A stretch of 64,000 nt of DNA, taken from NCBI GenBank assembly GCA_017882615.1, contig JADGPD010000005.1, positions 1 through 64,000 of the forward strand. Reading direction: 5' to 3'. Each line of letters begins with the position of its first letter. Position 1 is the stretch's first letter. Made by a program: the position numbers and the translations under genes. This document shows positions 29,116 to 34,312 of the stretch, one piece after another. Origin of the DNA: Thermoleophilia bacterium (lineage in GTDB: Bacteria > Actinomycetota > Thermoleophilia > Gaiellales > Gaiellaceae). Under the pieces are notes generated by a model that searched no databases, was not told where the DNA came from, and worked only from the letters and a program-made list of their open reading frames with translations.

Positions 29116-30801
29116 TCAGCGGGGACGGCTACTGGGAGCGGAGGACGGGCTTCGGGGCGCCGAAGCCGCGGCGGTGGCGACGTCGCCGGGGTAGGTATGC
29201 CGCGCCTTGAAAAGCAAGTACGCGGCGACGGCCAGCGGCGCGAGCATCACGGCGAACGTCCATTGCAACCCCGAGCGCCCACCGCCGAAAACGTAGTCGG
29301 ACACGGCGCCGAAAAGCAGCGGCGCAAGAGCCACCGCGACGCCGCGAACGAGCGTGCGCACCGACTCGGCGCGTCCCCACAGGCGCGGCGGCATGATGTC
29401 CAGGCGCGCCGCATCGATCGCCGGGTTCTGGGCCGAGAGCGCGAGCGCGGCGAAGAGCAGGTAGGGGAGGGCGGAGCCGGCGCTGCGCGTGATCAGCGCA
29501 GGAATGAAGAGCACGATCGTGGCCGTCGCCGCGAGCGCACTCACGGTGAGGCGGGCGTTGAGGTGGCGCCGGCGCAGCAGGGAGTCGCTGAGCGTTCCGC
29601 CGAGCAGCACGCCCACGATCGCGCCGACTCCCACGACGAGCAATAGTCCGTTCGCCTTCACCTGCCCGATGTCGTACTGGCCCTTGACGAACTCGACGCC
29701 GAAGATCTCCACCCCGGCCAGGAAGAAGTAGCCGAGAGAGCTGGATGCGATCAGCACGACGTTCGTCCGCACCTGGAGCACGTGCCGTATCGCCGCCCTC
29801 AGGCTCATGCGGCTGATGTCGCCGTGCAGGACGAGCGCCGGATCGGGGCCGATGTTGTGCTCGCGCACGAGCAGCTGGGCGTCGGTCGCGTGCGGCTCAT
29901 CGCTGGCCGGTTGCGCGTCAGCCGCGCGCTGCGCGGCTCGAGCCGCCGCCGTGCCCGCCTCGGGAGCGAGCGCACCGCGTCCGCCCCGCGCCGGCTCGGG
30001 AAGCCGCAACACCGCCCAGGCCAGCACGAATGCGGGAACGGCGAGAACGAAGAATGCGAGCCGCCAGGACAGAGCGGCGATGTCGCCGGTGACCGCGAAG
30101 CCGAAGCCGGCGCCGAGCAGCTCGCCGCTCAAGATGAAGCCGTAGATGCGCCCTCGCTCCGAGCCGGCGAAATAATCGCCGACGAGCGATGCCACAAGCG
30201 GGCCGGCCGCGGCGGTCACCGACCCTAGGAACAGGCGCGTGAGCAGGAGCTCGCCGAAGCTAGAGGCCATGGCGCTCCAGACCATCGCCACTCCCCAGAG
30301 CACGATCGCCGCTCCGAGTATGAACGTACGCCGGACTCTGTCTGCCAGCACGCCGAAAGGCACGCTGGCCAGCGCGCCGACGAGCGAGGAGACGGCGACC
30401 AGGAGGCCGATATCGGTGTTGTTGATCGACAGGTCGCTGCGCAGCTGCGTGGCCGAGGCGCCGACGGTGACGACATCGGCGCTGCTGAGCGCGAGAATCG
30501 CCGCGAGCACGACGATGACTCTCATCCTGACCGAGCCTCCGAGCGTGTCCGAGAGCTGCTCCGAGCCCGCCTTGGCCGCCTTGCGGGCGAGCTTCAGAGA
30601 GGCTTCGAGTTTCGGTTTTGGCTTGTCTCGGCTCGTTCCGATCGTCTCCCGTTGCTTGCGCCGAGGCGGGCCCGATCCGAACGGACGCGCGTGGCTCCGT
30701 CGATTATGAGGCAGGCGATTACGTGCAGCGCCGGGTGATCGCGCGAATCGAGTCGCCGGTCGCCGACGGTGAGCGTCGGCGCCCAATCGCCCGTTGCACA
30801 C
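29116..30801 (-). CDS. MFS transporter (start uncertain, probably within 30530-30670)
   Basis: About 12 hydrophobic segments; VVTVGASATQLRSDLSINNTDIGLLVAVSSLVGALASVPFGVLADRVRR. Confidence 0.85.
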   Translation of the reverse strand: MCNGRLGADAHRRRPATRFARSPGAARNRLPHNRRSHARPFGSGPPRRKQRETIGTSRDKPKPKLEASLKLARKAAKAGSEQLSDTLGGSVRMRVIVVLAAILALSSADVVTVGASATQLRSDLSINNTDIGLLVAVSSLVGALASVPFGVLADRVRRTFILGAAIVLWGVAMVWSAMASSFGELLLTRLFLGSVTAAAGPLVASLVGDYFAGSERGRIYGFILSGELLGAGFGFAVTGDIAALSWRLAFFVLAVPAFVLAWAVLRLPEPARGGRGALAPEAGTAAARAAQRAADAQPASDEPHATDAQLLVREHNIGPDPALVLHGDISRMSLRAAIRHVLQVRTNVVLIASSSLGYFFLAGVEIFGVEFVKGQYDIGQVKANGLLLVVGVGAIVGVLLGGTLSDSLLRRRHLNARLTVSALAATATIVLFIPALITRSAGSALPYLLFAALALSAQNPAIDAARLDIMPPRLWGRAESVRTLVRGVAVALAPLLFGAVSDYVFGGGRSGLQWTFAVMLAPLAVAAYLLFKARHTYPGDVATAAASAPRSPSSAPSSRPR

Positions 30802-30861
30802 TCACCGGATCGCTCGCCGCGGTCTGGCCGCAGCCGCTCGCCCGCTCCGACTGATCGACGA

Positions 30862-31022
30862 AGGGCCTATCCCAATAGGCCTGCACGCCCGACGCGGCCG
30901 ATCCGCGGCGTCAGCAACCGGAGGGCTGCTCTCCGCACTACCAGTGCGCCTTCACAGCCCTACGGCCACTGGCATCCACGGCTTGACCACCTCGGGCGCA
31001 CATCCCTACCGGGATAGGCCCT
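30862..31022 (-). ncRNA. Candidate structured RNA: 161-nt rod-like hairpin, unassigned family
   Basis: AGGGCCTATCCC/GGGATAGGCCCT terminal stem plus seven further nested helices, about 62 bp by hand; wobble pairs are G.U only on the minus strand. Confidence 0.55.
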
Positions 31023-31875
31023 AAAGCGCGTGTGCGCGGGTTGGATCGGGCTCGCCGCTGAGCTCCAGGCTGAGCTCCCAGAGGCGCCGGCGAGCGTCTC
31101 GGTCGTAGGCTTGATCGTCTGCGCGTGCCTCGGTTTGACGATCGAAGAATCGCCCGCTCACGTTCTCGAGCTCGGGTGCGACCGCCAGCCGGACGACGGC
31201 CTCGATGCCCGTCTCGAGACTGTCCACGGATCGGCCGATCTGCTCGAGAACGATCTTGGTGGGCATCAGCGTGCCCGGATGGAGGCTGTTGACGGTGACC
31301 TCCTCGGCGCGCAAGCGGTCGGCGAGCTCGAAGCCGGAGGTGATTTGGGCGAGCTTGCTCTGCCCGTAGGCGCGACTACCGCCGTAGGAACGCTCGAGCA
31401 TCGGGTCGTCGAAGTCGGTCGGGCTCTGTCCGATCGAGGCGACGTTGACGACGCGCGCAGGTGCGGATCGCCTCAGTAAAGGCAGCAGGCGCAGGGTGAG
31501 TACGAACCCGGCCAGGTAGTTGACCGCGAAGCGCAGCTCGTATCCGTCGCGGCTTTGCTGGCGCGTGGTCAGGTCGGGCTTGCCGCTACCGATGCCGGCG
31601 TTGTTGACGAGGACGTGGAGCTGCTCGGTCGAGTGCGTGATCTCCTCCGCGAGGGCGCGCACCTGGTCGAGCGAGGCGAGATCCGCGATGTGAGTACGGA
31701 CTCGGTCGTTGTTCGAGTTGTGCCGAATCTGCTTCGCCACCAGCTCGAGCTTGTCCGGATCGCGGCCGTGCAGGTGCACGGTGGCTCCGTAGTCAGCAAG
31801 GCGCTCGGCTACGCCGCGCCCGAGCCCGTCGCTGGCGCCGGTGACGAGGACTGTGGTCTGGTCGATCGGCCGCAT
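31021..31875 (-). CDS. Short-chain dehydrogenase/reductase
   Basis: TVLVTGASDGLGRGVAERLADYGATVHLHGRD; NNAG; YGQSKLAQI. Confidence 0.9.
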   Translation of the reverse strand: MRPIDQTTVLVTGASDGLGRGVAERLADYGATVHLHGRDPDKLELVAKQIRHNSNNDRVRTHIADLASLDQVRALAEEITHSTEQLHVLVNNAGIGSGKPDLTTRQQSRDGYELRFAVNYLAGFVLTLRLLPLLRRSAPARVVNVASIGQSPTDFDDPMLERSYGGSRAYGQSKLAQITSGFELADRLRAEEVTVNSLHPGTLMPTKIVLEQIGRSVDSLETGIEAVVRLAVAPELENVSGRFFDRQTEARADDQAYDRDARRRLWELSLELSGEPDPTRAHAL

Positions 31876-33181: not shown

Positions 33182-34312
33182 GTGGCTCTCGTCGACTGGC
33201 TCGCCGTGGCGTTCATCGCGTTGCTCGCTTTCGGCGGGGCCCGCAAGGGACTCATCGTCGGCGGTCTGTCGCTGGTAGGCGTGCTGGGTGGTCTGTACCT
33301 GGGCGCGCGTCTGGCCCCCGTTTTGTTCTCGGGCTCGAGTTCGCCCTACACGCCGCTGGTGGCGCTTGCGGGGGCGATGGTGCTCGCAATTGCACTGGAG
33401 ACCGCGGGCGCGCTCACGGGGAGCGTGCTCAGGGATGCGCTCAAACTTACGCCGCTAAGGCTATTCGACGCCCTGGGCGGGCTGGTGCTTGGAGCTGCCA
33501 CGGCCATCGCCGTGCTCTGGATAGTGGCTGCGGTCGCCTTCCATTTGCCGCAAACGTCGGTTGTGCGTGAGCGAGCGCGGCAATCGGCTCTGCTTTCGTC
33601 GCTGATCTCGACGCTGCCGCCTCAGGATGTGATGAGCGCCCTGGCGGGCATCGATCCCTTCCCGCTGATCGTCGGACCGGCGGCTCCGTCGCAGGCGCCC
33701 GATTCGGGCGTGCTCGCTCGCGCAAGCCTGCAGCGCAGCGAGCAGGGTGTGGTCAGGGTGAGGTCGGAAGCCTGCGGTATCGGCTACGCCGGCTCGGGTT
33801 GGGTGGCGAAGAAGGAGTACGTGGTCACCGCGGCGCACGTGATCGCCGGGGGAAGCAAGATCGAGATTCAGGCGCAAGGTCACTCATCCCGCCCCGCCCG
33901 CGTCGTCGCCTTCGACGCGACCAACGATCTCGCCTTGCTCTTCGTGCCGGGGCTGGGCGTGAGACCGCTCACGCTGGCCAGCCCGGACTACGGCGATGCC
34001 GGAGCGGTGCTGGGCTACCCCGGCGACGGACCTTTCATCGCGGAGCCGGCGCGAGTCGGCTCGACGGCGATCCTCTTCTCCCCGAACTACGCCGGTGCGG
34101 TCGTCAGCCGTTCGATCACCAGCCTGCGCGGCAAGGTGCGCCCCGGCGACTCAGGCGGCCCGCTAGTGAACGAGCTCGGTGCCGTTGAGCTGACGGTGTT
34201 CGGGGCGAAGAAGGGCACCGACGTCGGCTACGGCACCTCTAGCGAGCTCGCTCATGCTCTGCTCGAGCGTCGCGGTCACGTCAGCGTCTCTACCGGCGCC
34301 TGCCTGGACTGA
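33182..34312 (+). CDS. MarP-like membrane serine protease (CvpA-like TM domain + trypsin-like domain)
   Basis: MALVDWLAVAFIALLAFGGARKGLIVGGLSLVGVLGG; VVTAAHVIAGG, ATNDLALLFVPG, RPGDSGGPLVNELG. Confidence 0.9.
   Translation: MALVDWLAVAFIALLAFGGARKGLIVGGLSLVGVLGGLYLGARLAPVLFSGSSSPYTPLVALAGAMVLAIALETAGALTGSVLRDALKLTPLRLFDALGGLVLGAATAIAVLWIVAAVAFHLPQTSVVRERARQSALLSSLISTLPPQDVMSALAGIDPFPLIVGPAAPSQAPDSGVLARASLQRSEQGVVRVRSEACGIGYAGSGWVAKKEYVVTAAHVIAGGSKIEIQAQGHSSRPARVVAFDATNDLALLFVPGLGVRPLTLASPDYGDAGAVLGYPGDGPFIAEPARVGSTAILFSPNYAGAVVSRSITSLRGKVRPGDSGGPLVNELGAVELTVFGAKKGTDVGYGTSSELAHALLERRGHVSVSTGACLD

Follow-up and report, generated by a model that had tools for sequence, protein, structure and literature searches.

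The structured sequence flanked by SDR and MFS genes in the window, the 64,000-nt stretch of a Thermoleophilia bacterium contig that we analysed as a whole, is almost certainly a genus-specific, protein-less transposable element (MITE). Taking the evidence together, the best explanation, and in our judgement a probable one, is a MITE whose fold on one particular strand has been kept in the lineages that spread.

The element core (GGGCC...GGCCC, 159 bp) occupies positions 30863-31021 on the minus strand, the well-folding strand that carries the G.U wobbles, and was delimited by folds, by the family and by an empty site in a sister species. It is bordered by the two copies of a target duplication, GAA on the left (30860-30862), presumably a mutated TAA because the empty site in G001 (L171) holds a single TAA, and TAA on the right (31022-31024; TTA on the minus strand), assigned by the empty-site comparison. 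The 5' terminal inverted repeat, GGGCCTATCCCGGTAGGGA on the element strand, spans 31003-31021 (minus strand; terminal consensus GAGCCTATTYCGGTAGG from 59 copies), and the opposite repeat, GGGCCTATCCCAATAGGCC, also placed by the terminal consensus, spans 30863-30881 (plus strand). The apical hairpin CGCACU-GGU-AGUGCG (30934-30948, minus strand) is the most conserved part, with 98% of its cells paired. On the minus strand, 30862-31022 gave a predicted folding energy of -123.1 kcal/mol, against a mean of -73.7 kcal/mol for dinucleotide shuffles (z -11.9), and none of 200 shuffles equalled it; the plus strand folded more weakly (-90.3 kcal/mol, z -7.6). The 66-bp rod on the minus strand consists of 54 Watson-Crick pairs, 12 G.U and no A.C. 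The original prediction, a structured minus-strand RNA at 30862-31022 with G.U wobbles and none of the opposite kind, was therefore right in position, pairing and strand bias, and its fold was the predicted minimum-energy structure; only its length needed adjustment, as the core is slightly shorter and the 3-bp duplications come in addition.

The 5' arm overlaps the TAG stop codon (31023-31021, minus strand) of an SDR-family oxidoreductase gene (31021-31875, minus strand, Pfam PF00106), and an MFS transporter gene lies downstream (29116-30801, minus strand, Pfam PF07690), so that both the overlap and the location proposed earlier were borne out. Further along the window, 33182-34312 encodes a predicted fusion protein in which a Colicin V production-like membrane domain is joined to a trypsin-like peptidase domain.

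Copies were found in all six genomes examined of one genus of peat actinobacteria. By BLAST and a covariance model, the genome of origin holds three copies and one fragment, while the other five species hold about 10-15 copies (two species) or several tens (three species). Outside the genus, 97 genomes of the family yielded no convincing copy, 24 order-level genomes gave none by BLAST, and plasmid, phage and viral collections contained none. A scan for the internal signature across 85,000 species genomes returned only the Actinomycetota MAGs fen_451, fen_453, fen_544, fen_549 and palsa_644. A weak match in G094, from another genus of the same family (E 8.5e-4), was discarded as coding-like and differently folded. 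Rfam gave no match at gathering score and nothing but noise at E<=5, in keeping with the initial remark that no family sequence could be recognised. The family alignment comprises 103 copies from six species, and the element is accordingly short, non-coding, multicopy and dispersed, as a MITE should be.

Borders could be defined in 59 copies as CTNA/GAGCCTATTYCGG ... CGGAATAGGCTC/TNAG (slashes mark the element ends), in short form CTNA/GAGCC...GGCTC/TNAG, which gives the element terminal inverted repeats. Most copies lie in a TNA-type target within the context CTNAG, corresponding to the 3-bp TNA target of the IS1031 group. Joined flanks of several copies were then used to seek empty sites in sister species, and uninterrupted orthologous sites were recovered for five copies, four of them readable and the fifth too diverged. 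The window site reads ...GAC(GAA GGGCC..GGCCC TAA)AGCG, as against ...GACTAAGGCG in G001, where the copy is absent and a single TAA is present. Likewise, L012 (TAA..TAA) corresponds to an empty-site TAA, L018 (TAT..TAT) to TAT, and L023 (TTA..TCA) to TTA, so that a 3-bp duplication was seen at all four sites. Empty orthologous sites with this duplication show that the 159-bp unit transposes and inserts cleanly, and that insertion was repeated and recent enough for such sites to exist.

Several other states of the element were observed. Derivatives of 44-50 bp, barely more than the two terminal repeats, occur at G001:C19:43697-43745, G005:C12:11872-11915 and G002:C78:15919-15963 and are possibly deletion products or independently mobile. 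A site that carries the full element in L059:1496-1661 holds, in L029:2250-2333, a remnant whose two ends are kept and whose centre is deleted, which suggests loss through palindrome deletion. At equivalent intergenic sites, different species carry different subfamilies (L006/L060, L010/L128, L065/L107 and L146/L152), reflecting either repeated hot-spot insertion or replacement through conversion.

Gene context was assessed with neighbours from a simple codon-usage caller rather than curated annotation. Both neighbours could be called for 94 copies, none of which lay inside a predicted gene; the folding strand had both neighbours antisense to it in 39 cases and both sense in 17 (p 0.005). A stop codon overlapped the target duplication in 38 of the 103 copies, and the stop-abutting genes were antisense to the folding strand in 30 cases and sense in nine (p 0.001). 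This association with stop codons arises partly because the target CTNAG itself includes stops: six of the 29 non-coding CTNAG sites in the window are stop codons. The element comes to sit on a stop codon since CTNAG holds TAG, TAA or TGA and the first G of the element restores the stop. At the SDR stop codon, the insertion divided the original TAG, which was then restored from a TA supplied by the target duplication and a G supplied by the element. The orientation skew may reflect removal of insertions that place the stronger hairpin in mRNA, and gene context gives no support to sense read-through.

The fold was examined across the family, covariation among homologues having been named as a check when the structure was first proposed. 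In 51 full-length aligned copies, 37 of the 66 pairs had changed on both sides (20.9 in shuffles), with 147 both-side-changed cells (58.8 in shuffles), although these shuffles overstate significance because the copies are related. Sliding the partners by 1-3 columns reduced paired cells from 91% to 31-48%, so covariation exceeded both the shuffled and the slid controls. All 103 copies folded better on one common strand, with a median difference of 36 kcal/mol under RNA parameters, and they contained 1219 G.U cells against 153 A.C cells. A self-alignment blind to G.U versus A.C recovered 66/66 pairs, which means that the register was not picked by the wobbles. Among 45 non-overlapping pairs of close copies, GC<->GU differences outnumbered GC<->AC by 206 to 51, and AU<->GU outnumbered AU<->AC by 84 to 30. 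Mutational strand asymmetry (C-to-T or G-to-A) was considered as a source of this bias and rejected: C/T differences did outnumber A/G differences to some extent, whether or not the columns were paired, but strand-biased mutation would move the GC and AU counts in opposite directions, and a single bias cannot promote G.U starting from G-C and from A-U pairs at once.

The same genus carries a second family of dispersed rods, about 163 nt long (GAGCTCGTTTCAATTGACGACC...GAACGAGCTC), with its type copy at L040:2191-2353 on the minus strand and further copies in L082, L091, L130, L135, L133, L058, L137, L027, L006 and L056. Its copies also folded better on one strand (10/10). Copies of the first family are nested in or adjoin these rods, repeatedly at like positions.

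To see what the wobble bias means, we set each copy against the two existing copies closest to it, restricting the count to normally Watson-Crick pairs. This comparison took the place of a rare-variant test that scored rare bases only; bases that form G.U are frequent in their columns, which skewed that test. Changes private to one copy comprised 141 G.U, 73 A.C and 91 other mismatches, whereas states shared with a near relative comprised 283 G.U, 13 A.C and 31 others. The contrast had a Fisher p of 4e-19 by cells and of 0.05 by distinct pair columns, the latter being only 0.05 because the copies are related, so that the honest range is 4e-19 to 0.05. Some A.C states were shared at the edges of internal loops, for example at columns 41/198 (GC 56, AC 43), and when sharing was counted over wobble-blind pairs including internal loops the contrast was weaker, the extra shared A.C being loop columns. 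Private G.U:A.C was only about 2:1, with AU->GU against AU->AC near 1:1, and was similar in copies sense or antisense to neighbouring genes. Read most simply, this contrast means that copies decay almost freely once inserted and that the constraint acts on propagation; strand-specific selection probably acts in the lineages that spread.

MITE hairpins are generally viewed as passive by-products of terminal repeats. Applied here, such a view would mean that the element moves as double-stranded DNA, that only its terminal repeats matter, and that the G.U bias stems from a founder effect and drift. Transposition, which the empty sites prove, is what this account expects, as are the low private ratios and the common ancestry of the subfamilies. 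It is unlikely nonetheless, as two-sided compensatory changes run throughout the inner rod, beyond the termini; differences inside the rod between the close copies preserve G.U in 172+56 cases against 41+15; the helices are almost devoid of shared A.C; and the window copy itself has a dozen G.U and no A.C. The original prediction had stated that many scattered copies would indicate a passive MITE. The scattered copies were indeed found, but the element is not simply passive, since A.C is rarely inherited.

Selection at each site would instead be expected if the rod were a host-beneficial RNA module in 3' UTRs, serving as a terminator, an mRNA stabiliser or an RNase III site. The frequent overlap with stop codons and the absence of copies from predicted genes are compatible with this, and RNAs of the ERIC and NEMIS MITEs affect neighbouring mRNAs (PMC2229807, PMC3049150). 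Three observations make a host module improbable: the 30:9 excess of stop-abutting copies that lie antisense to the folding strand; the similar private G.U:A.C ratios of sense and antisense copies; and the true orthologous copies L157/L163 and L002/L019, in which pairs have been lost without a change of site (20 disruptive changes as against 15 to G.U). As single copies decay nearly neutrally, the pattern can be explained without invoking a host function at every site.

As for the mobilising enzyme, a three-nucleotide insertion site was described in a paper on Leifsonia as common in the IS1031 group (PMC2516522), and the TNA-type 3-bp target combined with GARCCT ends suggests the IS5 family, IS1031 group. 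In the sister genome G003, a truncated IS5-family transposase remnant (NF033580) is followed by GATTCAGGTTCTAAG, a GAACCT...-TNAG-type end. The element resembles IS5/IS1031 in its GARCCT-type ends and its TNA-like 3-bp target, and the G003 remnant ends in like style; it differs in having no transposase inside, and its terminal likeness to the remnant is confined to GAACCT versus GAGCCT. A search of the DDE families PF01609, PF13340 and PF13586 for an autonomous IS with these termini gave few matches, all of them either the IS5 remnant or unrelated, and no terminus pair flanked a gene among the matches listed for the terminus pattern, in assemblies that are MAGs and may miss repeats. With no full-length parent IS found, the assignment to IS5 is one that we infer, and the element may have been moved in trans by an IS5/IS1031-type DDE transposase.

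A different enzyme, a RAYT/Y1 transposase, would be involved if the element were REPIN-like and mobilised in the form of single-stranded DNA. Y1 transposases (PF01797) are present in three sister genomes (L192-L195, in G002, G003 with two, and G004), one of them RAYT-like in sequence, and REPIN hairpins carry compensatory changes (PMC3116915), as dispersed hairpins resembling the element in this respect. The one-strand fold would also fit single-stranded DNA, as DNA parameters favoured the same strand in 103/103 copies (median difference -13.4 kcal/mol). This origin is decidedly improbable given that a precise 3-bp duplication and symmetric termini are unexpected for Y1 transposition, that the 1.5 kb around the Y1 genes contain no rod, and that no Y1 gene was detected in the genome of origin, in G001 or in G005, though the last is rich in copies. 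Membership among the RAYT-mobilised REPINs was rejected accordingly, the element differing from REPIN/REP-RAYT systems in its 3-bp duplication, its larger size and the lack of a linked RAYT. A discrete small RNA gene of the 6S/Ms1 type, to which the original prediction had likened the rod, can hardly be right: rod outline and strand bias speak for it, yet the outline is all that is held in common, and the element is mobile, scattered in many copies, lacks an Rfam match and has empty orthologous sites with 3-bp duplications, while copy number and empty sites already refute a single-copy conserved RNA gene. Hence, of the selected minus-strand RNA first proposed, the one-strand preference and the pair covariation stand and the discrete gene does not.

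For a MITE whose fold is kept in spreading lineages, compensatory and G.U-preserving changes appear to have kept the rod of one strand in the lineages that multiplied, and we suppose that at some stage in the spread of the element this strand has to adopt its fold as a single strand. We prefer a folded transcript, for example one regulating or tolerating the element's own spread, with a hairpin in lagging-strand single-stranded DNA as the alternative; judging from sequence, the folded molecule is somewhat more probably RNA than single-stranded DNA. Only tentatively can the whole be cast as a miniature transposon of the DDE (cut-and-paste) type that needs a strand-specific fold of its entire length, as RNA or single-stranded DNA, to spread but not to persist at a site, in both rod families alike.

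The element is of a known kind, a MITE. It shares with the bacterial MITEs Correia/NEMIS, RUP, BOX and QMITE a size of 100-200 bp, the absence of proteins, terminal inverted repeats, a target duplication and intergenic location, and transcripts of bacterial MITEs form predicted, stable long stem-loops (PMC2229807, PMC10969869). Unlike them, it is GC-rich instead of AT-rich, has other termini, and strongly keeps its one-strand fold in inherited variation. ERIC/IRU, an imperfect palindrome of about 130 bp with a reported orientation-dependent effect on mRNA (PMC2229807), likewise gives an RNA that folds better on one strand, in 14/14 copies sampled from 14 plasmid-collection records, with no sequence relation to the element seen. 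Wobble-blind counts gave a G.U:A.C of 51:32 (1.6:1) for ERIC and 1277:289 (4.4:1) for the window-element family. What is new is thus the family itself and the unusual strength of its one-strand selection.

Splitting private from shared changes offers a test of whether a hairpin serves the spread of an element or its host, and the same test can be applied to ERIC, Correia and BOX repeats. The data also suggest that insertion has restored the stop codon of a number of genes in this genus. If the reading given here is true, a derivative of a DNA transposon would have a strand-specific single-stranded step that is absent from standard DDE mechanisms.
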